From NCBI RefSeq assembly GCF_030687835.1, contig NZ_CP117449.1:2542001-2606000 (forward strand): DNA of 64,000 nt, read 5' to 3'. Position numbers and translations under genes: made by a program. Under the pieces are notes generated by a model. It was given only the letters and a program-made list of their open reading frames with translations. It ran no database searches and was not told where the DNA came from. Shown here piece by piece: positions 44,486 to 63,461 of this stretch. Numbering within the stretch: the stretch's first letter is position 1; each line of letters begins with the position of its first letter. Origin of the DNA: Pseudomonas hefeiensis. GTDB lineage: Bacteria > Pseudomonadota > Gammaproteobacteria > Pseudomonadales > Pseudomonadaceae.

Positions 44486-45002
44486 CATCTGCTCTGTTGG
44501 TCGACTCCCGCCCATCGCGACAAGCAGGGTCCTGCTGAAATCCTTCATGGCCGCGAGCGAAGCGGGCACCTTGAGACTATGCTCATTGCCACTGCAGGCA
44601 ATGTATTGATTTCAATTGTCAGCCGCCAAGGAAAGGAGTCTGTATGTCTCTGGTTCGTCATGCCCGGTTCTATGTTTGGAATGACCGAATGAGCAATCTG
44701 GTAACCGGGGTCCATGGGCGCAGCTTGATCAATGGGCAACACCTCGTCAGTTCGTGAGCATTTGCGCGAGAGTCTCGGTCTGGTCGCTACAGGCTGCCTG
44801 ACTGCGAGCTCAAGCTGGCGGGAGTGGTGACGGCAGCGCAACAGGGTATTGCCAATAACTCGGGCAACTGCCCAAGCATTCTCAGGATCGACGATCTCCA
44901 ATCTGAAGGCCGACTTCTCCAGCCAGGTCGAGCAGTCGATCCAGGCTGTCGGCAAGTGCAGGTGGATTACTTTTGGTAAATCCCAAGGAAGTGGAGAACA
45001 GT
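44486..45002. other. Intergenic region with one possible 37-codon frame
   Basis: About 500 bases between merR and the periplasmic binding protein gene. A short plus-strand frame beginning at ATG 44644 with an AAGGAG site (MSLVRHARFYVWNDRM...) ends after 37 codons and matches nothing I know. No terminator or repeat was recognised. The region probably contains the promoter of the TorT/TorS-like pair. Confidence 0.4.
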
Positions 45003-46103
45003 ATGAACGCTAAACCGATCCACAAAATCCTATGGCGCCTCGCCGGCTGCGTGACCGGGCTGGCGATGGTTGCCGCCAATCCAGCCCAAGCTGCCGACGG
45101 CGGCATCGCCAGCGGCCCTGCCTCAAGCTATAGCATTGCCTTCAGCAACTCCTACGCGGGCAGCGATTTTCGCAAAGTGATGGTGCGCAACTGGCAGGAG
45201 GTTGCGGCCCAAGCGCAAAAGGATGGCTTGATCCGCGAGGCTCCGGTGGTCAGCGCCAATAACTCGGTGGCGGAACAAGCGGCCCATATCCAGGACATGA
45301 TCGTCAAGGGCGTGAACGCCATCGTCATTCTTGCCGCGTCCGACACGGCCCTCAACGGCGTGATCCGCGATGCTTGCAACGCCGGCATCGTGGTGGTCGT
45401 CATGGCCAGCCTGGTCACCGAACGCTGCGTCTATACCGTGGACTACGACTGGTCCGCCATGGGCCGCGTGGAAATGGATTATATCGCCGAGCGCCTCAAG
45501 GGGAACGGAACGCTGCTGGAGATCCGCGGCATTGCCGGCGATGCCACCGATAAAAACATCAGCGACGGCATTCGCAAGGCCGCCAGCGACTATCCGGGCC
45601 TGAGGTTCGCCAAGACCGTGTACGGGAACTGGACAGCGTCCGTCGCACGCAAGGAGGTGGCGCTGGCGCTGCCGTCGCTGCCCAGCATTGATGCCGTCGC
45701 GACTCAGGGAGGCGACGGCTACGGCGCGGCCATGGCGTTCAAGGCGGCGGGGCGCCCGTTGCCGATCATCGTGATGGGGAACCGTCAGGACGAACTTGCC
45801 CTGTGGAAACAGGAGCGCGATGCCAATGGCTACGAGACCGTCTCGGTCTCGGCCTCCCCAAGCGTCTCACAGGTGGGGTTCTGGGTGGCCCAGCAGATTC
45901 TGGCGGGCAAGCAGGTGCCGAAGTTTGTCGAGGTGCCGCTGGTACGCATCGATGCGAAAGACCTGGACGCCTGGCTCGCCACGATGCCGGTGGGCGGCGC
46001 CGCCAATCCTTTCTACACCCAGGCTTCCGTTGCGGCGATGATCGACGCGGCCATCAACCATACGGCGCCTCCGGCGCCTTTGCCGGAGGTGACGAAGCAG
46101 TAG
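45003..46103 (+). CDS. Periplasmic binding protein, TorT/RbsB-like
   Basis: A 366-residue exported protein. Signal peptide about residues 1-31 (GCVTGLAMVAANPAQAA) then a type I periplasmic-binding fold: SYSIAFSNSYAGSDFRKVMV, AAHIQDMIVKGVNAIVILAA, DGIRKAASDYPGLRFAKTVY, and QGGDGYGAAMAFKAAGRPLP. No ABC permease or ATPase is nearby; instead a large hybrid histidine kinase follows after 31 bases. This is the arrangement of TorT, which binds a ligand and signals through the TorS kinase. The ligand is unknown. The long frame's earlier TTG start (44973) is rejected in favour of ATG 45003. Confidence 0.85.
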   Translation: MNAKPIHKILWRLAGCVTGLAMVAANPAQAADGGIASGPASSYSIAFSNSYAGSDFRKVMVRNWQEVAAQAQKDGLIREAPVVSANNSVAEQAAHIQDMIVKGVNAIVILAASDTALNGVIRDACNAGIVVVVMASLVTERCVYTVDYDWSAMGRVEMDYIAERLKGNGTLLEIRGIAGDATDKNISDGIRKAASDYPGLRFAKTVYGNWTASVARKEVALALPSLPSIDAVATQGGDGYGAAMAFKAAGRPLPIIVMGNRQDELALWKQERDANGYETVSVSASPSVSQVGFWVAQQILAGKQVPKFVEVPLVRIDAKDLDAWLATMPVGGAANPFYTQASVAAMIDAAINHTAPPAPLPEVTKQ

Positions 46104-46134: not shown

Positions 46135-49100
46135 GTGTTGACATTCAGACCCACCACGGACAGGCCCATTGCCGTCAGGATTGGGCTGGCGGTCGCCGCA
46201 CTGGTGTTCTTGATGCTGGCGGTATCGCTAGTGAACCTCTACGGCCTGCGAGGCATGGTTCGTGCGGTGGATTCCGCCAGCCATTCCGCGGAAATTCTGG
46301 CCTCGGTTAACGGGGCCTCCGAGCGGGTGGAAAACTTCATCGCCACCCGCGACCAGGAAAAGCCTGTCCCAAGCCGAAGACATGGTGGCGACGGCTATCG
46401 CCGGCCTCAGCGCCATTGCGGTGGCAGAGGCACAATCGCTCAAGGGCGGTCTGGACAGGCTCGCCGCGGCGATCGTTGCCTTGCGAGCGGCGACCCTGAC
46501 CATGGATGGCGAAACGGAGAACATGACAGCCCACTACGGCCGGATGCGAGAAGCGACGATCCTCGTCGAACAGGGCATCGCCGATGGGCTGAAGGGGCTT
46601 GACTCCCGCACCGCTGAGCACGAGGCGCGGGTAAGCAATATTGAAAGCGCCCATCGCATCCTGGATATCCTGCGCAACGGCGAACGGATCATCACCGCCC
46701 ATGTGGCCAAGATACTGGTGAGCGGTGATAGGGCGGCCGCCACCGCGGCGCGCAACGCCTGTGCGGCACTCCCGCCCGTGGTCGAGCAATTGCGCGAGGT
46801 GATGGGGGCGCCGCAGGAGAGAGAGAGCCTGGACCAGTTGGCGACGGCGGTCGTTGCTACCTGCGTGACGGTAGAGCACCTTGGCGAGGCGCCCAGGTTG
46901 CGGGGAGGCGAGGCTTTACGGCAGCTCGCCGTCGTCGAGGAAGTGGTCGAGCGCCTCGAGGCAATATTGAGTGAGGTGGATGGGCACGTTGCTCATGACG
47001 CAAGCGACATTCAGGCAGCCACCGGTTTGCTGCACAATGCAGCCGCGTTGTCCAAGCGTTTCGCCGAGCGTGTCGCCACCCTGGAGGCACAGACGTTGTC
47101 GTTTCGCCTGTCTCCGTCGGCCGAGGTCGCCAGCTCTGTTGGCTACATCCTGGACGAGCTCTCCCGTCTCTCTCGCGTTCTCCCTTCGTCCGTGGGGCTG
47201 CAGACCAAGGCTACGCCCCTGACTGTCAGCGATCAGATTGCCGGCTACCGGGCGGCATTCGCCAGGTTTCATCAGGCGAGTAACGCGTTGAGCGACGCAC
47301 GCGACCAGGTTCGCGACGAGGCACGCAGCGCTGGCCTGTTGGTTGCGCGCTTCGCTGGAGAGGCGCGCTCCGACGCCTTGGTCCACAATGATCGCGGCAT
47401 GCTTGCGACGATAGTTGCGGGTACCGTCGCCATCCTGCTAGCCGGCGCCATCGCCTGGAGCACGTCGCGATTTATCGCCCAGCCCATCGTGGCCCTGGCC
47501 TCGGTCATGCGCCGGCTTGCGGCTGGCGACCTGAATGCCGAGATCGCCAGCGCCGAACGCGGCGACGAGATTGGAATCATGACCCGCGCCGTACGGGTGT
47601 TCCAAGAGAATGCCCTGCGCATCCGGGTGCTGGAAGCTGAGGCCGAAGCCGAACGACAGCAAGTCCAGGCCTCTTTGGAGAGAATGGTCGCCGAACGGAC
47701 CGACACGCTGCACCAACAGACCGAGGTGCTGGAGGCGCAGGCCATCGAACTCATTCAGGCGCGCAACCAGGCCGAGACGGCCAACCAGGCAAAAAGCGAT
47801 TTTGTTGCCACAGTCAGCCACGAACTGCGTACCCCCCTGACCCTCATTCTCGCCCCCTTGGAGCAGCTCTCGGCGGCGACCACTGCGCCGGCGGACTGGC
47901 GTGTGCAAGTCGACCGCGCCCAACGCAACGCGCTGCGCTTGATGAACCGGGTGAATGACATTCTCGATTTCTCCAAGGCCGAAGCGGGCAAGTTTGAGCT
48001 GTGTCCGGCGCCAATTGACTTGAACAAGATGGTGGGTGTGCTGGCCGAGGATGCCGCCATGGTGGCCGAGGGCAAAGGCTGCACCTTAACCAGCAGCATC
48101 GATCCTGCGCTCGGTACGGTGTTCCTGGACCCCCAGCACTTCGAGAAGATTCTTCTCAACCTGGTGAGCAATGCCATCAAGTTCACGCCTGCTGGTGGCA
48201 CCGTGCACCTGGCAGTGACGCCCATTGATGGCGAGCGATTTGAACTCGCGGTGCAAGACTCGGGGATCGGCATTGCGCCTGACAAACTGCCGTTGCTGTT
48301 CCAGCGTTTTTCCCAGATCGACAACTCCGCCACGCGCCACTACAGCGGTACAGGCATCGGTCTGGCCCTGGTCAAGGATCTGGCCGAACTGATGGGGGGC
48401 GAAGTCGGCGTCAACAGCGAGCCCGGAAAGGGTTCGTGCTTTTTTGTTCGACTTCCGCTGGGGACTGAGCCAAACAGCGTGCCGACCGAAGCCAGCACCA
48501 TGTACGAGCGATCGTCACCCAGCGCAACAAGCACTATTGAGCAGCGCCACCTGCGTTTCGATGACGGCCGCCAAGGCAGTCGCAACGACCACGCTTCGAC
48601 GCAAGGCGCAGACGACGAGCTGCACCCGGAACACGCCTTGCGATCCAGAGTGCTAGTGGTCGACGACAGCCCGGAAATGCTCAGCTACCTCAGCGAACTT
48701 TTGCAAAACGATTACATCGTCGCCACCGCCGTTGATGGCGAGCAGGCTTGGGCACTCCTGCAGCGTCGACCCATCGACGTTGTCGTTTCGGATGTAATGA
48801 TGCCGAAGCTCGATGGCTTTGGCCTGACAGCCAGAATCAAAGCCAGCGCCGGTTTTGCCCATTTACCCGTGATTCTGGTGACCGCGCGCGGCGGTAGCGA
48901 AGCCTGCGTCTCCGGGCTGGAGAGCGGCGCCGATGACTATATCGCCAAACCCTTCTCGCCGCTGGAGCTCAAGGCTCGCGTACGCGCGGCGCTGCGTATG
49001 AGCCAAGTGCAAACCGAACTGCATGCAAAGTCCCGTCAGGCGGGCATGGCCGAAATCGCCACTACTGTGCTGCACAACGTCGGCAACGTCCTCAACAGCG

Positions 49101-49855
49101 TGAATGTATCGGCAGAACTGGTCACCAGCCAGATGCGCACCTCCAAAGCCCAGGGGCTGGGCAAGGTGGCTCAACTGATGAACGAGCACGTGCATGACCT
49201 GAGCGATTTTCTCACCAGAGACCATAAAGGAAAAATGCTGCCCGACTACCTGCTCAAGTTGGCGAAAGTGGTGACCGCAGAGCAACAGAGCATCATCGAA
49301 GAACTCGGGCAACTCACCAAGGGCATTGACCACATCAAAACCATTGTTGCCGCCCAGCAGTCCTATGCCGTTGCCGTCAGTATCATCGAGACAGTGCCGG
49401 TCCCTGAGTTAATCGATGATGCCTTGCGCATGAGTGCCGGATCACTGGCGCGCCAGGAGGTGATGGTGGTCAAGGAAATCGCCGACTTGCCCCTGCTGTC
49501 GCTGGATCGGCACCGGGTACTGCTGATTCTGGTGAACCTGATCAGCAATGCCAGGCAGGCGTTGGACGGCGTGATTGATCGCAGCCCATGCATCACGTTC
49601 GGCGCCTCTCTCGCGCAAGGGCCCGTATTGCGTATCACGGTGGCCGACAACGGCAATGGGATTGCACCAGAGCACCTGGCGCGGCTCTTTTCCCATGGCT
49701 TCACTACGCGCAAAGACGGCCACGGTTTCGGCCTGCACAGTTGCGCGCTGGCCGCGCAGGAAATGGGTGGCAGCTTGACCGTGCACAGCGATGGGGCCGG
49801 ACAGGGCGCGACCTTCACCCTCGATATTCCCCTCGATGTTCCGCAGATTAAGTGA
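46135..49855 (+). pseudogene. TorS-like hybrid histidine kinase, split by a one-base frameshift
   Basis: The gene starts at GTG 46135 (AGGAGG upstream) and encodes a first membrane helix (VAALVFLMLAVSLVNLYGL) and ~50 residues of the sensor region, up to FIATRDQE. At 46358-46361 (AAAA) the frame must shift by one base; from 46361 the second frame continues SLSQAEDMVATAIAG to the stop. Repaired length is about 1239 residues: TM1, ~350-residue helical periplasmic domain, TM2 (IVAGTVAILLAGAIAW), HAMP, HisKA with SHELRTPL, HATPase, receiver (VLVVDDSPEM, SDVMMPKLDG), then a second kinase-like part with VLHNVGNVLNSVNVSAELV and HATPase motifs DNGNGI and GFGLHS. It is either a recent mutation or a sequencing error in a homopolymer. 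No response-regulator gene adjoins. Confidence 0.8.
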
Positions 49856-50799: not shown

Positions 50800-53700
50800 A
50801 TGTCCGTTCAAGATGTCAGTTTTGTAGGCATAACATCCAAGCCGCAAGACCCCAGGCTTGCCGAGGCCTGGGATCAGGCGATCAAGCAGGCCAAGGAGGC
50901 GGGCATTGAATGGGAGCGGCCAAAAGGCGACAACCGCTCGGCTCAAGACATCATTGACGACACGCCGGTGCTCAAGAACCTGGGCAACCAGAGCGATGTG
51001 AAGGAAAACCTCAAGGACCGTGTCGGCGATTTCGAGACTGACCCGGATGCGGCTTATCGCGCCAAGCAGGTGCTTGAGCACGTCGAAAAATATAATGAAG
51101 GCGGCGAACGGATCGCCAGCAAGGACATCGACAACGGTCGGGTCGACGGCTTCACGAGGGGCGGTGATGCCAGGCACGGAACCGAGGCGGGGCGCCTGCA
51201 AGACTTCGGCCGACAAGGTTTCTCGCACCTTAAGGGCGAGCTCAAGGATCTGTCCAAGCCCGGCGATGATCCCCAGGCTCGTGAACAAGCCGAAGCCCTG
51301 GGTATCAAGTGGGAGCGCCCTGACGGGGATGATCGTTCCGCGCAGGACATCATCAATGACAATGCCTTGCTCAAAAACCTGGGCAACCAGAGCAGCGTCA
51401 AGGACATGCTCAAGGAGCAGGTCGGCGATTTCGAAAATGACCCGGACGCCGCCTATCGCGCGACCCAGGTGCTGGAACACATCGAGACCCTCAATAGCGA
51501 GGGTGGCAAGATTGCCGGCAAAGACGTCGACAACGACCGCGTCGATGGTTTCACCAAAAGCGGTGAAGCGAAGAATGGCACTGAAGCCGGTCGCCTGCAG
51601 GACTTCGGCAAGAAGGGTTTCTCCGCCCTCAAGGGTGAGCTCAAGGATTCGTCGGCGGCTGGCGACAACAAGGAAGCCCGCGAGCTGGCCGAAAAGGTCG
51701 GCATCGTGTGGGTGCGCCCGGAAGAGGATAAACGTTCGGCGCAAGACATCATCGAAGACAATCCGCTGCTCAAGAACCTGGGCAACCAGAGTGGCGTCAA
51801 GGACATGCTCAAGGACCAGGTCGGCGATTACGAGAGCGATGCCGATGCCGCCTACCGGGCTGCGCAGGTCATGGACCGCATCACCATGTTCGATGACAAG
51901 GGCAATGCCCAGTCCGGTGGTGATGTGTTCAATAGCAGCGTGGACGGTTTCACCAAGAGCGGCGAAGCCAGGCACGGCACCGAGGCCGGCCGCCTGCAGG
52001 ACTTCGGCAAGGAAGGTTTTTCAACCCTGCCAGAACTCAAGAAAACCGAGGACATCGCCAGCTACAAGGATTACCTCAAGACCAACAAGGATGCCGATCC
52101 GGCGTCGCAGCAGGTCGCCAAGTACGCAGCGATCCTTGATGAGAACTTCGAGGCAATCAAGGGCAAGACCGGTGCGGGCAAGTACCTGACTGCCGACGAC
52201 ATCAAGGAGTACACCAACCAGAACTCACAACTGAGCGAGGAAACCCGTCAGGCACTGGATTTCTGGTCTCAGCCAGGTGCTTTCAAGGTCATCGACAATG
52301 CCAAGAACCCATTGGACAAGAATCCTGATGGCGAACTGAGCAGGGGCGATATTCAGGGCTGGCTCAAAAGTGCCAACGTACCCAAGGATGCAACGTCCGT
52401 TATCACATTGCTCTCGGGGATTGCCGGCAACAATGCCTTGGCCAGGGTTGATACCGCAGGTTTGAACAAGGACGTGTTCGATAACCCGGACAAATATTCG
52501 GCAGAGGAAAAAGCTGCGGTTCTACAGGATCTCAAGGCCGCCCAGCAACTGATTATCCAGGGCAGCGCCGCCGGGATGTGGAGGGATGACAAGTCGCAGG
52601 TCACGATCGCCAACAAGGTGCGCAGTCATCCCGATGCCCAGAAGCTGCTTGATGATGTCAACAAACACATTGGGATCTTGCAAAGTGACCCTGCGGTCAG
52701 TCAATACATGAGCGAGCATGGCTCCAATGAATTGACCAAGCTGGTGGAAGATAACAAGGGGCTCAAGGAGTCCCTGCAAAAAACCTACGACGACGAAGTC
52801 AAGTCCGGCAAGTCACTCGACACGCAGTGGGAGGCCAAGTCCAAGGATGGCAAGTTCACTCACACGGAAATTCTTGCCGAGTTCTTTGGTACGGCGCAGA
52901 CCCTTCAGGGCGCGCTGGGTATCAATAATGCCGGTGAGATCCAGGCCGCCGTCAAAGGCTCCAAGGCCAATGCCGAGCTGGAAAGCTATTACGAGAAGTC
53001 ACTGGCTTCAGGCGATCGCCTGAATGAACTGCTCAAGGAGCATACCCCTGACGAAGCCATGAGTGCTTTCAGCCTTGAAGTCGCGCTGTACAACTCGGCG
53101 CTGGACCCCGAGTTCACCGGCAAGCTGGACACACAGCTCAACGATAACTTCACCAGGATCGCCAAGGACAATGCCTTCAAGGATGCGTCCTTCGACGATA
53201 TAAAGGCGGCCTTCGGCGTCAATGGCGGTAGTGAGCTGGATGAGGAGAAGGTCAAGAAAATCATCGAGCAGATCAGCGAGGAAAACCCGCAGATGCTCGT
53301 CAATGCCGACGGCACCGTCGCCACGCCAGACCAGATCCTGGCTAACTTCCGGGGGGACTGGGACCTGCTTCGCCAGGGCACCAAGACCCTGGATTCGCTA
53401 GGTGTATTCAGCAAGGACTCGTCGCTCAAGGACGCTCAGAGCAAAGGCGTCATGCATGGTGTGAGCGGGCTGTTCATGGCCGGCGTTACCATCGCCAAAG
53501 GCGCCAACAACGCCGGCAAGCTGACCGAGCGGCAGATTGTCGATATCGCCACCGGTTCGGTGCAGGCCGCCACGCTCCTGGCTGAAGGGGGTCTGAAAAA
53601 CTATCAGGATTATCTCAAGGATGTGAAAGGCAAGCTGACAGGTGATCGGCTCGGCGACCTGGGCAAAAAGTTGGACGATCCGCTCAAAAGCGTGACCGCC

Positions 53701-54156
53701 AACCTCAAGGGCATGGAAAACGCGGCCAAGGGGGTCGGTGGCATTGCGGCTATCACTGCCGGCGCCTATGGCATTTTCGATGGCGTCAAGGCGCTCAGGA
53801 AAGGCGATACGGTAGCCGGTGGCATGAATATCACGGCCGGTTCGCTGGGTATCATGGCGGGCCTGGCTTCGGTGGCTGAAGTGGGCGCCAGCGCGCTGAG
53901 CGTTTCGGCGATTGCCGCCTCGCGGATCGCGATGGTGGCGGGTGGCCTAGGCTTCGCGGCGGCGGGTGTGGCTGCGCTGGCATTGCTGGTTCCGGGCCTG
54001 ATCGAGGAAGTCAAGCAAGAGAAACGGGTGGGTAAATTCGCGGATGCCCTGAGCGATTACCTGACTCAGTATGAAATCGACGGTGTGCCGCAAGGCGATA
54101 TCTGGGATATCCCTGACGAGGAGTGGCCGGGGGAAGAGAGCACCGTTGGTTCATGA
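50800..54156 (+). CDS. Large repeat-containing HrpF/NolX/HrpK-like putative T3SS translocator
   Basis: A 1118-residue acidic protein without a Sec signal. Residues ~22-420 are three tandem 133-residue repeats (each containing RSAQDII, LKNLGNQS, VGDFE/YE, DGFT, GTEAGRLQDFG). The middle (~430-560) has calcium-loop-like pieces (DKNPDGELSRGDIQGWL) as in HrpF/HrpK modules. The C-terminal third has hydrophobic segments (GIAAITAGAYGIFDG; AGSLGIMAGLASVAEVGASA; MVAGGLGFAAAGVAALALLV) suited to membrane insertion. Known HrpF/NolX proteins carry N-terminal repeats and C-terminal hydrophobic helices and form the translocon. Assignment is by architecture; a toxin-like effector is the alternative. AAGGAG site; terminator downstream. 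Confidence 0.65.
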   Translation: MSVQDVSFVGITSKPQDPRLAEAWDQAIKQAKEAGIEWERPKGDNRSAQDIIDDTPVLKNLGNQSDVKENLKDRVGDFETDPDAAYRAKQVLEHVEKYNEGGERIASKDIDNGRVDGFTRGGDARHGTEAGRLQDFGRQGFSHLKGELKDLSKPGDDPQAREQAEALGIKWERPDGDDRSAQDIINDNALLKNLGNQSSVKDMLKEQVGDFENDPDAAYRATQVLEHIETLNSEGGKIAGKDVDNDRVDGFTKSGEAKNGTEAGRLQDFGKKGFSALKGELKDSSAAGDNKEARELAEKVGIVWVRPEEDKRSAQDIIEDNPLLKNLGNQSGVKDMLKDQVGDYESDADAAYRAAQVMDRITMFDDKGNAQSGGDVFNSSVDGFTKSGEARHGTEAGRLQDFGKEGFSTLPELKKTEDIASYKDYLKTNKDADPASQQVAKYAAILDENFEAIKGKTGAGKYLTADDIKEYTNQNSQLSEETRQALDFWSQPGAFKVIDNAKNPLDKNPDGELSRGDIQGWLKSANVPKDATSVITLLSGIAGNNALARVDTAGLNKDVFDNPDKYSAEEKAAVLQDLKAAQQLIIQGSAAGMWRDDKSQVTIANKVRSHPDAQKLLDDVNKHIGILQSDPAVSQYMSEHGSNELTKLVEDNKGLKESLQKTYDDEVKSGKSLDTQWEAKSKDGKFTHTEILAEFFGTAQTLQGALGINNAGEIQAAVKGSKANAELESYYEKSLASGDRLNELLKEHTPDEAMSAFSLEVALYNSALDPEFTGKLDTQLNDNFTRIAKDNAFKDASFDDIKAAFGVNGGSELDEEKVKKIIEQISEENPQMLVNADGTVATPDQILANFRGDWDLLRQGTKTLDSLGVFSKDSSLKDAQSKGVMHGVSGLFMAGVTIAKGANNAGKLTERQIVDIATGSVQAATLLAEGGLKNYQDYLKDVKGKLTGDRLGDLGKKLDDPLKSVTANLKGMENAAKGVGGIAAITAGAYGIFDGVKALRKGDTVAGGMNITAGSLGIMAGLASVAEVGASALSVSAIAASRIAMVAGGLGFAAAGVAALALLVPGLIEEVKQEKRVGKFADALSDYLTQYEIDGVPQGDIWDIPDEEWPGEESTVGS
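50863..52059 (+). repeat. Three tandem 399-base coding repeats
   Basis: Equivalent codons recur at exactly 399-base spacing: the WERP/WVRP codon blocks start at 50908, 51307 and 51706. The repeats remain in frame and are diverged, so they arose by old duplication. Each encodes about 133 residues of the translocator-like protein. Confidence 0.85.
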
Positions 54157-54829: not shown

Positions 54830-55774
54830 ATGACAGCCTTGACTTTCTTCGCGGCTCCAGCCGCAGCTGCCACGGGCAAGGCTCTGCCAGTGCTTGGTAT
54901 CACCCACGGTCTGCACCAGGGGGTATGCCTGCCCTTGGACCAGCCCGTCTACATTCTGGGCAGTGCCGCAAATGCTGATCTGTTACTCAGCGATGCCGGT
55001 ATTGTCGAGCGTCACATGGCGCTGCGTTTCACCGATGGCCAGGTGGCCATTGAAGCGATCGGCGGCGATGTGTTCGTGTGCGCCAGCCATGCCCGGGAGA
55101 TCCTCATTCCCGCGGGCAAAGGGCATCGTGCGCACTTGCCCGTGGATATCCGCCTCGGCGAAGCCCGCCTGACCCTCAGTCGTGGCGCCGTATGCCTGGA
55201 GCCGATAGCGGCTGTGGCGATAACACCCTCCTGGCAGCGCAAGTCGCGCTGGATCATCGCCTTATTGCTGATGTTCCTGTGCGTGGGCGCCTTTGCCTTT
55301 CGGGGCGAGCCGGTTTCGCCGCTGGCGTTGAGCACCGTCGACAAGGCCGCCGCGCTGGCTGCGCACGATGCACCGAAAAACACCGTCGTGCAGGCCAGGG
55401 TCTGGCTCGAACAGCAGCTTGCCACGTTAGGTCTGCACCAAATCAAAGTCAGCGAAGTCGACGGTCAGCTCAGCGCCCATGGGTCCTATGGCCCGACCCA
55501 GAAGGGCCAGTGGCTTGGCGTGCAGCAAGCCTTCGATGGCCGGTTTGGCCAACAGGTGATGTTGCTTTCCGGTGTGGTGGCACGCAACGAAATCGCCAAG
55601 CCCCGCGTGCGCTTTCAGGCTGTGTGGTTCGGTGATAACCCATACGTGATCAACGACAACGGCGAGCGCCTGTTTCCGGGGGCTGTGCTGAACGATAACT
55701 GGCTGCTCGAACGCATTGAGAACGATGAAGTGATTCTCGCCCGAGGTGAAGAGCGGTTCACGCTCACCTTATGA
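54830..55774 (+). CDS. sctD: T3SS inner-membrane ring protein SctD
   Basis: A 314-residue bitopic protein. Residues ~12-110 form an FHA-like cytoplasmic domain (GVCLPLDQPVYILGSAANAD, LLSDAGIVERHMALRF). One membrane helix at ~143-160 (WIIALLLMFLCVGAFAF) is followed by a periplasmic part with a ring-building-like motif (VVQARVWLEQQLATLGLHQI). This is the SctD (YscD/PrgH/HrpW) layout, somewhat short. It is the second gene of the run and overlaps the next gene by four bases. Confidence 0.82.
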   Translation: MTALTFFAAPAAAATGKALPVLGITHGLHQGVCLPLDQPVYILGSAANADLLLSDAGIVERHMALRFTDGQVAIEAIGGDVFVCASHAREILIPAGKGHRAHLPVDIRLGEARLTLSRGAVCLEPIAAVAITPSWQRKSRWIIALLLMFLCVGAFAFRGEPVSPLALSTVDKAAALAAHDAPKNTVVQARVWLEQQLATLGLHQIKVSEVDGQLSAHGSYGPTQKGQWLGVQQAFDGRFGQQVMLLSGVVARNEIAKPRVRFQAVWFGDNPYVINDNGERLFPGAVLNDNWLLERIENDEVILARGEERFTLTL

Positions 55775-56133: not shown

Positions 56134-56465
56134 ATCGCCAGGAACAGGACTGCGTCGATCTGCTCAAGGGCATGGGCGAGCTGTATCGCCGTAGTGGTCA
56201 GTCGCAGCGCGCCTTGGTGCTGCTATTGATCGCCGTCCAGATGGCACCCGGTGACGCTACGCTGCTGCGCAATCTGGTCATGGCTTTTACCGACAGCGGC
56301 CAGGCCGAGCGAGCCCTGTCGGCGCTGGACCGTCTGGTCGAGCTGGAGGGCGAGTCCTCTGGCCTGTGGCTGTTGCGCAGTCGCGCGCTATGGAGTGGCG
56401 GGCGCAAGGACGAGGCGCGTCAGTGCTTCAAACGTTATCTGACTGCCCGCAGAGCCGCGCAATAA
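56130..56465 (+). CDS. TPR protein between sctD and sctV
   Basis: A 111-residue helical protein with about three tetratricopeptide repeats (LYRRSGQSQRALVLLLIAVQ, LVMAFTDSGQAERALSALDR, SGLWLLRSRALWSGGRKDEA). Rhizobial T3SS clusters have a small gene (y4yS) next to rhcV, and LcrH/SycD-type chaperones have the same fold, so a chaperone role is plausible. Start ATG 56130 overlaps the previous stop (ATGA) and its stop overlaps the sctV start (TAATG). Confidence 0.78.
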   Translation: MNRQEQDCVDLLKGMGELYRRSGQSQRALVLLLIAVQMAPGDATLLRNLVMAFTDSGQAERALSALDRLVELEGESSGLWLLRSRALWSGGRKDEARQCFKRYLTARRAAQ

Positions 56466-58600
56466 TGTTTCTCGACCGCCTCAACGCATTGGCTCGCATG
56501 GCCGCCCAGCGTAGCGACGTGATCGTCGTTATCTTCATGCTGATGGCCATCGTGATGATGATTATCCCGCTACCCACCTGGCTGGTGGATACGCTTATTG
56601 GCCTGAACATCTCGCTGAGCATCCTGATCCTCATCGTCGCTTTCTACATCAAGCACTCGGTGGAGTTCTCGGCGCTGCCGCCCCTGATCCTGCTAAGTAC
56701 TCTGTTTCGTTTGTCCCTGTCGATCACCACCACACGCCTGATTCTGCTCGATGGCAACGCCGGGCACATCGTCAAGGCGTTCGGTGATTTTGTCATCGCC
56801 GGCCAGGTCGTGGTCGGTCTGGTGGTGTTCCTGATCATCACCGTGGCCCAGTTCGTGGTGATCACCAAAGGTGCCGAGCGGGTGGCCGAGGTCGCGGCGC
56901 GCTTCACCCTGGATGCCATGCCGGGCAAGCAGATGAGTATCGACAACGACTTGCGCAACGGCGATATCGATCAACATGAAGCTCGCCGTCGCCGCTCGCG
57001 TCTGGAGCGTGAAAGCCAGATGTTCGGCGCGATGGATGGTGCCATGAAGTTCGTCAAGGGCGATGCCATTGCCAGCCTGGTGATTCTGGCGGTCAACCTG
57101 CTGGGCGGCATGATGATTGGTATGGTCGAGCGGAATATGTCGTTTGCCGATGCGGCGCACACCTATTCGCTGCTGACCGTCGGCGACGGCCTGATCGCCC
57201 AGATCCCGGCCCTGCTGATCTCGGTCGCGGCCGGTATGGTGGTGACTCGGGTCAACAGTGGTACTACCGAAGGCAACCTGGGCAGCGAGATCCTTCATCA
57301 ACTGGGTTATAGCGCCCAGGCCCTGGGCTTGACTGCTTTGATCCTGCTGGGCGTGGCGCTGTTGCCGGGCTTCCCGGCCATTGTATTTATCGGGCTGTCG
57401 GCGTTGCTGGGCGTTGCCGCGTTCATGATCTATCGCCGCGACAAAGCCCCCGAGACCGAGGTGGTCGAAGGCGTCAGCGAGGTCGCGGTGCCCGAAGACC
57501 AACCGTTCGAGCCGGGCGAAACCCTGGCTAAGCCACTGGACAGCCGCGTGCTGCTGAGCATCGGCCTGGAACTGGCCCAGGCGGCGCCTGAACTGCCGTT
57601 GCGCCAGCGCATCGAGGCTTTGTGCCATGAACTTCGCGGTGACTTGGGGATTGAGGTGCCGGTGCCGGACATCTACATCGACCACAGCCTTCCCGCCAAC
57701 GGCTACACGGTCGAACTCGAGGGCGTGCCGATCAGCGAGGGCGAGATACCGCTCGGTTGCCTGATGCTCAAGGACGATCTGGTGCACGTCCAGTTGCTGG
57801 AGATCCATGCGCTGGAGGCGCCGTCGCCGCTGCACAGTCGCCCGGCGCAATGGATCGAGCGCACCCACCAGGCGCTGCTGGAGGAGGCCGGTATCGGTTT
57901 TCTCAGTGCTGCCGAAGTCCTGCGAGCCATCCTCGAGCGCAGCCTGCGCCGCAATGCCGCGACCTTTCTGGGCATTCAGGAAACCCGCAGGATTCTGGAG
58001 CGCATGGAAGCCAGCTATGACGAGTTGGTCAAGGAAGTGATGCGCAGCGTGCCCTTGCAGCGCCTGGCCGAAACCTTGCGTCTGTTGATCGCCGAGGGCG
58101 TGTCGATCCGCAACCAGCGTGCCTTGCTCGAAGCCATGGTCGAGTGGGGCGCCCGCGAGCAGGATGCCGCGCGTCTGGCCGATCACTTGCGCGCCAGTCT
58201 GGCTCGGCAGATCAGCCACCAGTACGCCGACCGTAACCGTGTGATCACCGCTTTCGTGCTGACCCCCGCGGTGGAAGAACAGCTGCGTGCGTATCTACGC
58301 CGTGCCGACAATCCGCGCGAGTTGCTCAACGAGCATGCCAGCCGTTCATTGCTGACTCAGTTGCGTGCCGTTTGCGGGCACCTGGCCGAGGACGATCGCA
58401 CCGTTCTGCTGGTACATCCCGAGTTGCGTCGCAGCTTGCGTCGGCTGGTGGTGCGTGGCGAGCTGGAGTTGGCGGTGCTGTCGTTCCGCGAACTGGCCGG
58501 TGAGTACAACCTGCAGGCCATCGGCTCCATCAGTCTGACCGAAATTACCGACCGCCGGGCAACCGGCGATGCTTCCCTTACTTCAATGGCGACTGCGTGA
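56465..58600 (+). CDS. sctV: T3SS export gate protein SctV
   Basis: A 711-residue inner-membrane protein of the FlhA/HrcV/RhcV family. Eight N-terminal helices (first at MAIVMMIIPLPTWLVDTLIG) include the conserved LSITTTRLIL and the FHIPEP-like cytoplasmic loop with TLDAMPGKQMSIDNDLRNG; the C-terminal ~370 residues are the cytoplasmic ring domain. It forms the nonameric export gate. The start at 56465 overlaps the previous stop by one base, and the stop overlaps the secretin start by one base. Full length and very conserved, the firmest T3SS marker in the window. Confidence 0.96.
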   Translation: MFLDRLNALARMAAQRSDVIVVIFMLMAIVMMIIPLPTWLVDTLIGLNISLSILILIVAFYIKHSVEFSALPPLILLSTLFRLSLSITTTRLILLDGNAGHIVKAFGDFVIAGQVVVGLVVFLIITVAQFVVITKGAERVAEVAARFTLDAMPGKQMSIDNDLRNGDIDQHEARRRRSRLERESQMFGAMDGAMKFVKGDAIASLVILAVNLLGGMMIGMVERNMSFADAAHTYSLLTVGDGLIAQIPALLISVAAGMVVTRVNSGTTEGNLGSEILHQLGYSAQALGLTALILLGVALLPGFPAIVFIGLSALLGVAAFMIYRRDKAPETEVVEGVSEVAVPEDQPFEPGETLAKPLDSRVLLSIGLELAQAAPELPLRQRIEALCHELRGDLGIEVPVPDIYIDHSLPANGYTVELEGVPISEGEIPLGCLMLKDDLVHVQLLEIHALEAPSPLHSRPAQWIERTHQALLEEAGIGFLSAAEVLRAILERSLRRNAATFLGIQETRRILERMEASYDELVKEVMRSVPLQRLAETLRLLIAEGVSIRNQRALLEAMVEWGAREQDAARLADHLRASLARQISHQYADRNRVITAFVLTPAVEEQLRAYLRRADNPRELLNEHASRSLLTQLRAVCGHLAEDDRTVLLVHPELRRSLRRLVVRGELELAVLSFRELAGEYNLQAIGSISLTEITDRRATGDASLTSMATA

Positions 58601-59934
58601 TGATGTGTTTTGCGCTGTTGCGCGTGCTTGTGTATTTCGGTTTCTGGATCGCTGCCGTGTCAGCCTTGCTGCTGCCGCAACTGGTCAGTGCGCAGACCAT
58701 TGCTTCGGGCAGCAGGGCGACCCTGGACCTGGCCCAAGGCGAAGGTCGCATCCTGCACTTCCAGGACCCGGTCGAGTCGGTACTGGTCGCAGAGCCTGGC
58801 ATTGCGGACCTTCAGGTGGTTTCGCCGGGTGTGATCTACGTGTTTGGCAAGAGGCCCGGACAAACCAGCCTGATTGCCCTCAGCGCTGAGGGGGAGGAAC
58901 TGGCCAGCCTGAACCTGGCGGTCAATAGCGGCGCCCAGGCAGTGACCCGCCCGTTTAAAGAGCTGCACCCCGCAAGCCATGTCCAGGTGACCGGTGCTGG
59001 TAATCGCATGGTGGCCAGGGGCGTGGTCAACAGCGTTGGCGAAGCAACCGACCTCAACAGCCTGCTCAATACCGAAGGCCAGGGTTTCGGCTCGGCCCTC
59101 AACACCGCCTCCTACTCGGGTTCGGCCCAGGTCAACCTGCGGGTGCGCTTCGCTGAAGTCTCGCGCTCGGAGTTGCTGCGCTACGGTGTGAACTGGAATG
59201 CCCTGTTCAATAACGGCACCTTTTCCTTTGGCCTGTTGACGGGCGGTGCCCTGGCATCCGACGCGGCTTCCGGCGCCTCCAACGTGATCAGCGCCGGACT
59301 GGCCTCGGGCAACGTCAACATCGATGCGATGCTCGAAGCGTTGCAGAGCAACGGCATCCTGGAAATCCTCGCCGAACCCAACATCACCGCCATGACCGGT
59401 CAGACCGCCAGCTTCCTGGCCGGAGGTGAGGTCGCAGTGCCGGTGCCGGTCAACCGCGACACCGTCGGGATCGAATACAAACCTTACGGTGTGTCGCTGC
59501 TGTTCAACCCGACCCTGCTGCCCAACGGCCGCATCGCTCTGCAAGTGCGCCCTGAAGTCAGCAGCCTGATGGGCTCCAGTACCGTGGCGGTCGGCGGCTA
59601 CCAGGTGCCGTCGTTCCGGGTGCGGCGCGCCGATACCCGTGTCGAGGTCGGCAGTGGCCAGACCTTCGCCATTGCCGGGTTGTTCCAGCGCGAGAGCACC
59701 CAGGACATCGAGAAGGTGCCGATGCTGGGCGAGATGCCGATCCTGGGCAATCTGTTCCGCTCCAAGCGCTTCCAGCGCAACGAAACCGAACTGGTGATCC
59801 TGATCACTCCGTACCTGGTGGAACCGGTCCGCACGCGCACCCTGGCCACGCCGCTCGATGCCCGGCCCATGGGTGCGAGCAACGCGCCCGGCGGACCGCG
59901 CAGCAGCGACATGTTCGGCTTCTACCTCAATTGA
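58600..59934 (+). CDS. rhcC2: T3SS secretin C-terminal part RhcC2 (CpaC-like)
   Basis: A 444-residue secretin. The signal peptide region is VLVYFGFWIAAVSALLLPQL. The first domain (LVAEPGIADLQVVSPGVIYV, FGKRPGQTSLIALSAEG) is the BON/pil_N-type domain found in Tad-pilus CpaC/RcpA secretins. The secretin core follows: LRVRFAEVSRSELLRYGVNW, LEALQSNGILEILAEPNITA, GVSLLFNPTLLPNGRIALQV, VPMLGEMPILGNLFRSKRF. In rhizobial T3SS the secretin is split into RhcC1 and RhcC2; the other half is at 61335. ATG 58600 overlaps the sctV stop; GTG 58597 is possible. Confidence 0.9.
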   Translation: MMCFALLRVLVYFGFWIAAVSALLLPQLVSAQTIASGSRATLDLAQGEGRILHFQDPVESVLVAEPGIADLQVVSPGVIYVFGKRPGQTSLIALSAEGEELASLNLAVNSGAQAVTRPFKELHPASHVQVTGAGNRMVARGVVNSVGEATDLNSLLNTEGQGFGSALNTASYSGSAQVNLRVRFAEVSRSELLRYGVNWNALFNNGTFSFGLLTGGALASDAASGASNVISAGLASGNVNIDAMLEALQSNGILEILAEPNITAMTGQTASFLAGGEVAVPVPVNRDTVGIEYKPYGVSLLFNPTLLPNGRIALQVRPEVSSLMGSSTVAVGGYQVPSFRVRRADTRVEVGSGQTFAIAGLFQRESTQDIEKVPMLGEMPILGNLFRSKRFQRNETELVILITPYLVEPVRTRTLATPLDARPMGASNAPGGPRSSDMFGFYLN

Positions 59935-59947
59935 ACCAGGAGCGAGC

Positions 59948-60373
59948 ATGAACCCACAATCGTCCCATCTGTCCCTGGCCATCCTGCTGTTCGGCGCGCC
60001 CTGGCTGCTGAGCGCTTGCAACACCCAGCTTGAGCCGGTGAGTTATTCGCCGGATTACCAGGCGTTCACCCATGCCGATGGTCGCGTTGAGTGGACGCCA
60101 GTGGCTTGCCTGGAGCCATCGGCCGAAGACAACTTCCATACCGATGAACAGACGTACGTGCGCCTGCTGCCACCGGGTTGTGCGAATAACCTGACACTGC
60201 AGCAGATGGTTGAGAAGCGTTCGGATCTGATCGAGGGCCGGACGAGCGGCCCAACCATGGCCGCGCCGGTTGGCCGGGCGGCCCAGGTTTACATCGAAGG
60301 TTATGATCGTGAAGAGCTGCATCGCCGCCTGGCCGAACAGCAGGCCAAGGCCGACAAGCAGGAGGGCCAATGA
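59948..60373 (+). CDS. CpaD-like outer-membrane lipoprotein
   Basis: A 141-residue lipoprotein: signal ILLFGAPWLLSAC, then a domain whose C-terminal half (RLLPPGCANNLTLQQMVEKR, SDLIEGRTSGPTMAAP, AAQVYIEGYDREEL) resembles the conserved end of CpaD, the lipoprotein that works with the CpaC/RcpA secretin in Tad pili. It lies 13 bases after rhcC2 in the same operon and is probably its pilotin or partner. Two cysteines, C59-region (ACLEP) and the GCANN cysteine, could pair. The longer open frame to the left is an artefact. The family match is from memory. Confidence 0.65.
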   Translation: MNPQSSHLSLAILLFGAPWLLSACNTQLEPVSYSPDYQAFTHADGRVEWTPVACLEPSAEDNFHTDEQTYVRLLPPGCANNLTLQQMVEKRSDLIEGRTSGPTMAAPVGRAAQVYIEGYDREELHRRLAEQQAKADKQEGQ

Positions 60374-60384
60374 AGCCTTCTGAC

Positions 60385-61167
60385 TCAGCGGCTGTCGACC
60401 AGCCCCAGCTCCCTGGCCTGCGTCGCGGGGTCTTGGATAGCCTTGATGCGTCGGGCCTCGGTCAGCAACCGGGCGTATTGCCTGGGCGTGACATCCTCCA
60501 GGCTCTGGGTCTTGAGGTCTTCCTCGCGGCCGGTCAATACCATGACGAGCAGGGCGTTGCGCTGGTGACTGGCCTGGACGCGAGGCGACTCGCTCACCGT
60601 CTTGATGGTTTGCAACGCCCGTTGCGATTGGCCACCCAAGGCGTAAGCCAGTGCCAGGTTGCATTGGGTATCCAGGTTGGTGGGGGCCAGGACCAGACTT
60701 TGGGTGAAGGCCACCTGGGCCGCCGCTGGCTGGCCTCGCAGCATCTGCGCCACACCCTGGCGGTTGAACGCTTCGGGGTGGTCGTTGCCCGCACTGGCCA
60801 GGGTCAGAGAGGTGATAGCCCGATCCAGTTTGCCCTGACGCAGTTGGGCAGTGCCCACGCCGAGCAACGCCGCGGTATTGTCCGGCATGCGTTCCAGCGC
60901 TTGCAGGTAGGCGCGCTCGGCGGCCCGTGCATCGCCGCTGGCCAGGCGCGCCTGGCCCAGCTTCAACCAGGCCTCGATCCGGGCGTCCGGTTCCTGGGTG
61001 GCTTTTTCGTACAGCGCGGCGGCAGATCCCGTATCACCACCTTTTTGCAGGTCGCCGGCCAGTTGCATATAGCGCTGGTAGCTGCCATCGGAAACCGGTT
61101 GGTTGGAGCAGGAGGCGAGGGTGATGGTGGCGAGCAACAACGGTGTGCAGGCAAAACGACTTGTCAT
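60385..61167 (-). CDS. TadD-like TPR lipoprotein
   Basis: A 260-residue lipoprotein (signal TPLLLATITLASC) with about five tetratricopeptide repeats (AAALYEKATQEPDARIEAWL, RAAERAYLQALERMPDNTAA, PEAFNRQGVAQMLRGQPAAA, LALAYALGGQSQRALQTI). The layout is that of TadD/PilF, which help secretins assemble in the outer membrane. It is the only gene on the minus strand in this T3SS block, convergent with the CpaD-like gene (11 bases between stops) and divergent from rhcC1. Start ATG 61167 is chosen since it yields the lipoprotein signal. TPR genes near split rhc secretins are known in Rhc-type systems. Confidence 0.82.
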   Translation of the reverse strand: MTSRFACTPLLLATITLASCSNQPVSDGSYQRYMQLAGDLQKGGDTGSAAALYEKATQEPDARIEAWLKLGQARLASGDARAAERAYLQALERMPDNTAALLGVGTAQLRQGKLDRAITSLTLASAGNDHPEAFNRQGVAQMLRGQPAAAQVAFTQSLVLAPTNLDTQCNLALAYALGGQSQRALQTIKTVSESPRVQASHQRNALLVMVLTGREEDLKTQSLEDVTPRQYARLLTEARRIKAIQDPATQARELGLVDSR

Positions 61168-61334
61168 GAACAGAACTCTTTCGATGAATTTTGCAGTGGG
61201 CAAAACCAAGGAGTGTTGACCACTCAGACCCGACAGGTTGACCGACGTTTAAGTCATCTTCTTGACATGATCCGTAAAAATGAGCGTTTTTTGGCTGGAG
61301 TTGCGTCATCCGTCCGGCCACGGGGAGCCCTTGC

Positions 61335-61934
61335 ATGCGCAGCGTGACACTGAGCGCTATCGGTCTGGCGCTGGTGATGACCGCTCTTGACCTGGCCGCC
61401 GCCAATCAAACGGAAGCGGACCCGGCTAGCCGGCAGCCGGACTGGTTCGATCGGCCCTATGCCTATGTGCTGGTGGAGCAGGATGTACGCGACGCGCTGG
61501 AAGAGTTCGGCCACAACCTGGGCCTGACCGTGGTCATGTCGGACAAGGTGCGCGGCCAGTCGCGCAGCCGGGTACGCGCCGAATCCGCTGGGGATTTCCT
61601 GGAGGCGCTGTGCGACTTCAACGGCCTGACCTGGTACTTCGACGGCAATGTGCTTTACCTCACCGCCGCCTCTGAAACCGATACGCGACTGTTCAAGGTC
61701 CGGGGTCGGCAGTTGGAGCAGTTACAGGATTACATCGTCAGCCGGGAGGTCTATGGCAAGCATATTTCAGTGCGTGCCGGGCCCGATGGCAATGAGTTGT
61801 TCGTCTCCGGACCGCCGGCCTGGCTGGCCATGATTGAGCAGCATCTCGACCAGCAGCCTGCGTCAACACCGACCGCGGCGACCCGCGAGCGCGGCGTGCG
61901 TGTGTTCAGAGGCGCAGCAGTGACACAAGAGTGA
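61335..61934 (+). CDS. rhcC1: T3SS secretin N-terminal part RhcC1
   Basis: A 199-residue exported protein with signal peptide (LSAIGLALVMTALDLAAA) and N0/N1 domains of a T3SS secretin (YVLVEQDVRDALEEFGHNLG, VVMSDKVRGQSRSRVRAESA, DFLEALCDFNGLTWYFDGN, SVRAGPDGNELFVSGPP). It has no secretin pore domain; that is encoded by rhcC2 1.4 kb upstream. A separate RhcC1 is the hallmark of rhizobial-type T3SS. It is divergent from the TPR lipoprotein gene and 65 bases before the next T3SS gene. Confidence 0.88.
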   Translation: MRSVTLSAIGLALVMTALDLAAANQTEADPASRQPDWFDRPYAYVLVEQDVRDALEEFGHNLGLTVVMSDKVRGQSRSRVRAESAGDFLEALCDFNGLTWYFDGNVLYLTAASETDTRLFKVRGRQLEQLQDYIVSREVYGKHISVRAGPDGNELFVSGPPAWLAMIEQHLDQQPASTPTAATRERGVRVFRGAAVTQE

Positions 61935-62678: not shown

Positions 62679-63461
62679 ATGTTCCGCCGTTGCCACGCCG
62701 TGCGTCTGATGCTTGTCCTCGCCTTTGCCAGCTTGCTGCAGGGCTGCGATATCGACCTGTACACCAACCTCAGCGAACGCGAGGCCAATGCCATGGTCGC
62801 AGTGCTGTTGCGCGAGGGCGTGCCGGCCTCTCGCAAGGTCCAGGAAAACGGCCAGCTCACCGTGGTGGTGGACGAAAAGCGCTTTGCCGAGGCTATGAGC
62901 CTGCTCGACGAGGCCGGCTTGCCGGGCCAGACTTTCTCCAACATGGGGGCGGTGTTCAAGAATAATGGCCTGGTGTCTTCCCCCGTGCAGGAGCGGGCGC
63001 AGATGGTCTATGCGCTCAGCGAGGAACTCTCCCACAGCGTTTCGCTGATCGACGGCGTGGTCTCGGCCCGGGTGCATGTGGTGCTGCCCGACAATGACCT
63101 GCTCAAACGGGTGATTTCCCCGTCGTCGGCTTCAGTGCTGGTGCGCTACGACCCCAATACGGATATCAATCCGTTGATCCCGCAGATTAAAACCCTGGTG
63201 GCCAACGGCATCTCCGGCTTGAGCTACGAAGGCGTCTCTATCACTGTGATCAAGGCCGCCACCGGCAGCCGCCGCGTCGATGCACCGCCGCGTCTGGCGA
63301 GCTTCCTGGGCATATGGATGCTCGAAGACTACCTGCCCCGTGCCCGGATGCTGTTCGGCGTTCTGCTGCTGGCCACGCTGTCGATGGTCGGTGTGTTGGG
63401 CTGGCAGTACTGGCAACGACGCTCCTCCAGCGCCTTGTATGAACTGGAGGACGTGAAATGA
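62679..63461 (+). CDS. sctJ: T3SS inner-ring lipoprotein SctJ
   Basis: A 260-residue lipoprotein of the YscJ/HrcJ/RhcJ family. Signal ending LLQGC (C25 lipid site) followed by DIDLYTNLSEREANAMVAVL; the linker domain FAEAMSLLDEAGLPG; the second ring domain with ARVHVVLPDND and SASVLVRYDPNTDINPLIPQ; and a C-terminal membrane helix (LFGVLLLATLSMVGVLGW). It builds the 24-mer inner-membrane ring with SctD. The stop overlaps the start of sctK (ATGA). Confidence 0.95.
   Translation: MFRRCHAVRLMLVLAFASLLQGCDIDLYTNLSEREANAMVAVLLREGVPASRKVQENGQLTVVVDEKRFAEAMSLLDEAGLPGQTFSNMGAVFKNNGLVSSPVQERAQMVYALSEELSHSVSLIDGVVSARVHVVLPDNDLLKRVISPSSASVLVRYDPNTDINPLIPQIKTLVANGISGLSYEGVSITVIKAATGSRRVDAPPRLASFLGIWMLEDYLPRARMLFGVLLLATLSMVGVLGWQYWQRRSSSALYELEDVK

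Follow-up and report, generated by a model that had tools for sequence, protein, structure and literature searches.

In a 64,000-nt stretch of the genome of Pseudomonas hefeiensis (assembly GCF_030687835.1, contig NZ_CP117449.1, positions 2,542,001-2,606,000 of the forward strand; the whole stretch is called the window here), four adjoining genes of a type III secretion system (T3SS) cluster, at window positions 58600-61934, encode a Tad-type secretin (RhcC2), a relative of the C-terminal half of the Tad protein CpaD, a TadD-like tetratricopeptide repeat (TPR) lipoprotein read from the opposite strand, and the secretin N0-N1 region as a separate chain (RhcC1). We consider it likely that these four proteins together form the outer-membrane channel of the T3SS, a prediction built on family relationships, a conserved gene order, a C-terminal tail shared with Tad secretins, and the absence of the N-terminal domain of CpaD. 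Judged by its genes, the cluster is a subgroup II Rhc T3SS (Rhc-II): its core groups with Rhc systems in the SctV tree, its secretin is split into rhcC1 and rhcC2, and it includes an HrpK-like gene with an HrpK1 domain. The genes run in the series sctD, an SctY-type TPR gene, sctV, rhcC2, the CpaD-like gene, the antisense TPR gene, rhcC1, a NolB-like gene (a weak match, E 0.011), and sctJ. The host genome (6.45 Mb on a single contig) has its nearest named relatives by RhcC2 within Pseudomonas (P. karstica, 91% identity), and RhcC2 homologs at E <= 1e-100 are found in 21 of the 199 genomes of the genus searched, P. hefeiensis included.

RhcC2 had been predicted from the DNA alone (hereafter the original prediction) to open with the pil_N/BON-type domain of CpaC and RcpA, and that domain is indeed present, followed by a secretin domain (Table 1). 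Its best solved structural relative is RcpA (8odn_A, E 4.8e-53). When 65 secretin cores are placed in one tree (21 Tad, 8 SctC, 9 PilQ/GspD, and, both picked for spread, 18 Rhc-II and 9 Rhc-I), the Tad, Rhc-I, and Rhc-II secretins lie on one side of a branch with support of 100/100, and the classical T3SS secretins (SctC) form a separate group, also at 100/100. The domain pair and the tree position together match what is expected of CpaC/RcpA-type secretins. We rejected RhcC2 as a classical SctC because its secretin domain groups apart from SctC, so that the grouping with HrcC/YscC named beforehand as telling against a Tad origin is not what the tree gives. None of the Tad pilus partners CpaB, CpaF, TadB, and TadC has a match at E <= 0.01 among the 329 frames of the window, which holds T3SS genes instead. 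On this evidence RhcC2 is Tad-derived and not a component of a Tad pilus; a Tad origin for RhcC2, with RhcC1 as a retained N-terminal linker, was already put forward in the accessible text of Abby and Rocha, 2012 (PMC3459982).

The gene after rhcC2 was expected to resemble cpaD, and the resemblance holds for the C-terminal half of the protein only. CpaD (PF09476) is its sole Pfam match (E 0.0029, profile positions 151-198 of 200), and the retained module carries the invariant Cys54 and Cys78 followed by GCA, VE, D, GR, and PVGRAAQ, in keeping with the cysteine pair and GCA...NL...MV...DL..GR motif of CpaD. Of 38 homologs selected from 87 found, 31 have a Pfam CpaD match (E <= 0.01; lowest 5.7e-7), and no other Pfam family is matched by any of the 38; a precomputed CpaD label is attached to 7 of the 87. 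A profile-profile comparison of 25 Rhc-II rows with 59 Tad CpaD rows scored 97.5% (E 6.6e-12) over 75 columns at the C-terminal end, against at most 1.2% for column shuffles of the Rhc-II profile (n=40); the 17 Pseudomonadaceae rows alone scored 95.7% (E 1e-8), and nine rows of the Rhc-I counterpart Y4xK scored 99.7% over 180 columns (E 4.7e-26). The lack of any CpaD similarity in profile searches, which would have spoken against the assignment, is thus not what we found. Three results do weigh against it: the window protein reaches 17.8 bits, below the Pfam CpaD cut-off of 31.1 (also missed by the Rhc-II proteins of loci L044 and L045, and passed by the Rhc-I proteins of L047 and L048 and by that of L171, a related locus described below); when its own genome is scanned, a match at another place (E 0.021) is as good as this one (E 0.020); and the AlphaFold 2 model is weak (predicted local distance difference score 72, predicted TM score 0.41). 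Chance likeness between small lipoproteins would fit the low single-protein scores, but it is highly improbable in view of the Pfam matches across the family, the profile-profile match, the full-length CpaD of L171, and the position after the secretin gene, which is that of cpaD after cpaC. The single-sequence evidence is thin, and it is the family and profile evidence that settles the CpaD relationship.

The N-terminal OmpA-like domain of CpaD is absent from the protein: 29 residues separate Cys24 from Cys54, and the Pfam match starts at profile position 151. In Caulobacter, according to the accessible part of PMC13170226, the N-terminal part of CpaD is predicted to be OmpA-like and to bind peptidoglycan, and AlphaFold 3 puts CpaD around the CpaC barrel. 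The half of CpaD retained in Rhc-II systems would be the one that binds the secretin.

The antisense gene proves, as predicted, to encode a TPR lipoprotein with the sequence features of TadD: a lipobox, a TPR array, and a TadD-type cap. Cys20 is conserved in at least 90% of 45 rows, and the TPR gene frames have a lipobox-like motif in 43 of 43 loci. At full length, 45 homologs compared with nine Tad-locus TPR proteins scored 99.9% (E 2.5e-37); for the cap the profile-profile score was 92.7% (E 4.2e-7; shuffles at most 1.4%). A cap-only hidden Markov model (HMM), built from the part after the TPRs in the nine Tad-locus proteins and run on 9481 frames, ranked the training proteins at 0-8, the Tad TPR protein of L089 at 9, the TPR protein of L171 at 10, and Rhc-II TPR lipoproteins, some of them copies of one locus, at 11-42; the window protein has E 0.005, and PilF of the same genome is not among the best 75 matches listed. 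In a TPR tree from which the host's own Pseudomonas TadD was left out, the Rhc-II and L171 proteins fall among Tad-locus TadD proteins.

Other results count against a TadD relationship. The full-length TadD model is unspecific, in that a 579-residue TPR frame of the same genome (L181) scores 89.5 bits, inside the Rhc-II range of ~78-122, and the Rhc-II proteins of L046 (51.6 bits) and L050 (40.3 bits) fall below it; the cap-only HMM is not significant for several Rhc-II members (L084, E 0.52; L037, E 0.68), and those of L044 and L046 are not among the best 75 matches listed. A generic TPR protein, such as a chaperone or regulator, would be consistent with this lack of discrimination, with the match of TPR repeats to many families, with structure matches tied among PilW, PilF, MamA, and OGT, and with the statement of Gazi 2015 that subgroup II is without y4yS, the Rhc-I gene for a TadD-like lipoprotein. 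We find this explanation improbable, given the two cap results, the ubiquitous lipobox-like motif, the conserved position beside RhcC2, and the placement in the TPR tree. By analogy with TadD, we predict that the antisense TPR lipoprotein is the pilotin of RhcC2; Gazi 2012 noted the TPR reading frame in a related cluster and, as far as the accessible text goes, gave it no place in the outer-membrane complex.

A separate supply of N0/N1 domains by RhcC1 had also been anticipated, and RhcC1 matches TIGR02516 over profile positions 2-152 of 463 (E 8e-24), a fragment that scores below the model cut-off. The arrangement recurs in 43 loci, comprising the window, 32 loci from genome contigs, and 10 others (L083 and L097 are near-copies, and L050, L083, and L084 were included because of a prior CpaD match). 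The CpaD-like gene directly follows rhcC2 in 43 of 43 (42 by script, L171 by coordinates), or 40 of 40 in a count free of that bias. A TPR homolog is present in 43 of 43 stretches, adjoining the CpaD-like gene in 40 and lying elsewhere in L046, L050, and L171; rhcC1 is present in 41, and the full order of rhcC2, CpaD-like gene, opposite-facing TPR gene, and rhcC1 is kept in 35 loci, the window counted. In the Rhc-I loci read, y4xK comes directly after rhcC2 in 10 of 10 (five of which came from a CpaD search, with identical secretins in L085 and L086). Tad loci have the order cpaC-cpaD, several of them with a TPR gene after tadC.

RhcC2 also shares its C-terminal tail with Tad secretins. The pattern G[FY]xx[DEKNQR] at the end of the protein is present in 41 of 42 Rhc-II secretins (the exception is L084), the one from L171, 8 of 9 from Rhc-I, and 63 of 69 Tad CpaC proteins, and in 0/8 SctC, 0/26 PilQ/GspD, and 9/7560 other open frames; the RcpA of P. 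hefeiensis ends in GLSQ, outside the pattern. In P. aeruginosa, residues 412-416 of RcpA occupy the groove of TadD, and the last four residues are required for TadD binding and assembly (Tassinari et al., PMC10499894, accessible text). The tail of RhcC2 may be held by the TPR lipoprotein with the same grip. Two published observations weigh against this: NopA secretion persisted, at a reduced level, in a Mesorhizobium loti strain whose RhcC2 bore a C-terminal tag (Mercante et al., 2015, PMC4311626, accessible text), so that this system does not strictly require the C-terminus to be free; and Caulobacter needs CpaD and can dispense with the TadD ortholog CpaO (PMC13170226, as above), so the tail may bind CpaD instead. 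Docking of the RhcC2 tail on the CpaD-like lipoprotein, with the TPR protein as an accessory, would fit the retention of the tail in most Tad loci and the adjacency of the CpaD-like gene to rhcC2 in every locus, where the TPR gene is adjacent in 40. We regard it as unlikely, as a TPR homolog is nonetheless present in every locus and loss of the TPR lipoprotein lowers RhcC2 in M. loti. In the docking we prefer, the TPR lipoprotein would take RhcC2 to the outer membrane with the GFYLN tail in its TPR groove, like TadD with RcpA; the short CpaD-like lipoprotein, which lacks the presumed peptidoglycan-binding domain, would lie on the barrel of the secretin; and RhcC1 would bridge RhcC2 to SctD, as Abby and Rocha proposed.

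The claim that the outer-membrane part was built from a Tad secretin module with a separate adaptor stands in substance, except that this may have happened more than once. L171 is a T3SS locus with SctV, SctN, SctJ, and RhcC1, from a host in the class of genome G035, taken for Alphaproteobacteria. Its CpaD is full length and above the Pfam cut-off (39.2 bits, profile 5-196), its secretin tail ends in GFIID, its TPR protein is TadD-like, and it is sister to Rhc-II in the secretin tree (100/100) and the TPR tree (93/77). From these sequences L171 is an intermediate, a full-length CpaD in an Rhc-II-related T3SS. The Rhc-II and L171 secretins group with the CpaC of one Tad locus (L152/L205 of genome G840; 96/95), which holds CpaB, CpaF, TadB, TadC, and a TPR gene, and the CpaD of L171 groups with the same locus (98/94; 95/97 in a joined CpaC and CpaD tree). 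Rhc-I RhcC2 instead groups with the CpaC of Azospirillum and Skermanella (97/84). Among plasmids, a collection rich in those of Azospirillum, tblastn with Rhc-I CpaD gave 27 rhizobial records (taken for Rhc-I) and then 20 weaker matches (13 Azospirillum, 4 Sinorhizobium, 2 Skermanella, and 1 Shinella); with Y4yS, Azospirillum TPR genes are among the matches listed (best 40 of 92), one of them in Tad locus L099.

That the Rhc-I and Rhc-II secretins lie apart while the T3SS cores lie together (an Rhc clade for SctV at 99/98, with a single Rhc-I row; for SctN, Rhc-I beside Rhc-II and L171 at 92/87) hints at two recruitments, which we favor although approximately unbiased (AU) tests do not settle the matter. 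Forcing the secretins into one Rhc clade cost 18.4 log units in a first set of 48 rows (AU p 0.018) and 12.8 in 68 rows (p 0.30); the cost was 17.2 for CpaD, with Rhc-I and L171 only (p 0.14), and 26.6 for both genes joined (p 0.067). A single recruitment, in which one capture of the Tad set by the common ancestor preceded the split of the Rhc systems (Abby and Rocha, 2012), Rhc-I and Rhc-II only diverged afterwards, and the tree conflict comes from weak signal, is quite possible, although we put it clearly below even. It is compatible with the three larger p values, with the single family formed by the cores, with the poor placement of Rhc-I in the CpaD tree (82/0 and 66/66), and with the drop of the Azospirillum/Skermanella tie to 91/65 when the genes are joined; the p value of the first set, the two distinct CpaC affinities, the joining of L171 to the same Tad locus by CpaD, and the Azospirillum plasmid matches speak against it. 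Our tentative proposal, held with slightly less than even confidence, is that Rhc-family T3SSs acquired complete Tad outer-membrane sets (CpaC, CpaD, and TadD) on two or more occasions, the sources being two different Tad loci of alphaproteobacterial type, and that the sets then shrank in opposite directions. In Rhc-I, CpaD would have stayed whole and TadD would have been trimmed to Y4yS; in Rhc-II, TadD would have stayed whole and CpaD would have been trimmed to a stub that binds the secretin. RhcC1, the adaptor shared by both, would make pilus pores interchangeable components of injection machines. Acquisition of the Rhc-II set from an alphaproteobacterial-type Tad locus seems likely, and that of the Rhc-I set from another Tad locus, as a second event, possible; the reciprocal reduction of CpaD and TadD is our inference from the two present-day sets.

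Table 1. Coordinates, strands, and supporting evidence for the outer-membrane gene set and context genes (window positions).
Feature	Position	Strand	Evidence
rhcC2 (hrcIIC2), Tad-type secretin, 444 aa	58600..59934	+	PF13629 + PF00263; RcpA 8odn_A; Tad clade
pil_N (BON-type) N-terminal domain of RhcC2, residues 40-109	58717..58926	+	PF13629 E 4.6e-19
secretin domain of RhcC2, residues 247-408	59338..59823	+	PF00263 E 1.7e-44
C-terminal tail GFYLN of RhcC2, predicted pilotin-docking peptide	59917..59931	+	G[FY]xx[DEKNQR]-end pattern; RcpA analogy
CpaD-like lipoprotein, 141 aa, lipobox-type Cys24	59948..60373	+	Pfam CpaD match, alignment, family profile
retained CpaD C-terminal module, ~residues 54-118	60107..60301	+	alignment; hhalign vs Tad CpaD, 75 columns
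TadD-like TPR lipoprotein, 260 aa, lipobox-type Cys20, predicted pilotin	60385..61167	-	TPR repeats, lipobox, cap
post-TPR cap common to TadD, ~residues 179-242	60442..60633	-	cap-only HMM, hhalign
rhcC1 (hrcIIC1), T3SS secretin N0-N1 region as separate chain, 199 aa	61335..61934	+	TIGR02516; PF21304, PF03958 weak
sctD, Y4yQ-type (context)	54830..55774	+	PF23893, PF16697
sctV (context)	56465..58600	+	TIGR01399 above cut-off
sctJ (context)	62679..63461	+	TIGR02544 above cut-off

Several further observations were made in the host and elsewhere. P. hefeiensis encodes another T3SS, whose SctC is of the classical one-chain kind (L102, C1:6053450-6054931), so that split Tad-type and classical outer-membrane solutions coexist in one genome. 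It also has a Tad locus that contains RcpA along with a TPR protein matching TadD (8odn_B, E 3.9e-41). The HrpK1-domain protein, translocator-like and 1118 residues long (window 50800-54156, + strand), has three similar N-terminal repeats of ~130 residues, spotted by eye. Upstream of the cluster lies a large hybrid sensor kinase with a receiver domain (46262-49855, + strand), and beside it a periplasmic-binding-domain protein (44973-46103). A conjugative Klebsiella pneumoniae plasmid (L046, NZ_CP035384.1, 13903-51171) carries an Rhc-II-type T3SS whose secretin is Tad-type and whose CpaD-like gene is short, with similar matches on two further Klebsiella plasmids (H16 and H17). The Paracoccus plasmid pKON1 (L050, NZ_KP294352.1, 27846-51980) carries a T3SS that combines a secretin of Tad type with a CpaD-like gene and a TPR lipoprotein; its SctV and SctN do not join the group formed by Rhc-I, Rhc-II, and L171, perhaps through a further recruitment or as a long branch.

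The outline of a Tad-derived T3SS outer-membrane set is already known, and its parts are known for Rhc-I. The original prediction supposed that the CpaD resemblance might be undescribed; for Rhc-I this does not hold, since the accessible text of Mercante et al., 2015 describes the CpaD-homologous lipoprotein mlr8762, along with the TadD-like TPR lipoprotein Y4yS, whose loss lowers RhcC2, and RefSeq or GenBank records label the Rhc-I gene "CpaD family pilus assembly (lipo)protein". For the Pseudomonas and Rhc-II protein we found no mention of it in the open-access literature, nor did we find there the Rhc-II pilotin candidate, the shortened CpaD, the shared docking tail, the L171 intermediate, or a possible double recruitment with secretins apart and cores together. 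Gazi 2015 asked why a system-specific pilotin should be needed at all; a candidate pilotin gene for subgroup II and a five-residue predicted docking tail are now indicated. These results suggest that a T3SS can have its outer ring replaced, with RhcC1 as the connecting piece, and that two lipoproteins of the outer membrane can exchange roles.

Among known systems, the T3SS-2 of P. syringae (PSPPH_2521 to 2524; Gazi 2012, accessible text) shares the cluster type, the gene order, and an opposite-facing TPR reading frame between hrcIIC1 and hrcIIC2; its secretin was described there as a split HrcC, and the main text mentions no Tad, CpaD, or lipoprotein. The Rhc-I set of rhizobia (RhcC1, RhcC2, Y4xK/mlr8762, and Y4yS) likewise has a Tad-type secretin, a separate N0-N1 chain, a CpaD relative after rhcC2, and a TPR lipoprotein. 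It differs in having a full-length CpaD (the two proteins scanned cover profile positions 1-200 and 2-200) where that of Rhc-II is short, whereas Y4yS of NGR234 (L095:9080-9628, - strand) has 182 residues and stops right after the TPRs, without the TadD cap, and the Rhc-II TPR protein is full length with the cap. Classical SctC has N0-N1 in common with RhcC1, and the secretin domain of RhcC2 groups apart from it. With the Tad outer-membrane complex (CpaC-CpaD of Caulobacter, RcpA-TadD of P. aeruginosa) the Rhc-II set shares the secretin class, the C-terminal tail, and the neighboring CpaD and TadD relatives; unlike the Tad pilus, it serves a T3SS, has no match to CpaB, CpaF, TadB, or TadC at E <= 0.01 in the window, has a shortened CpaD, and has RhcC1 added.

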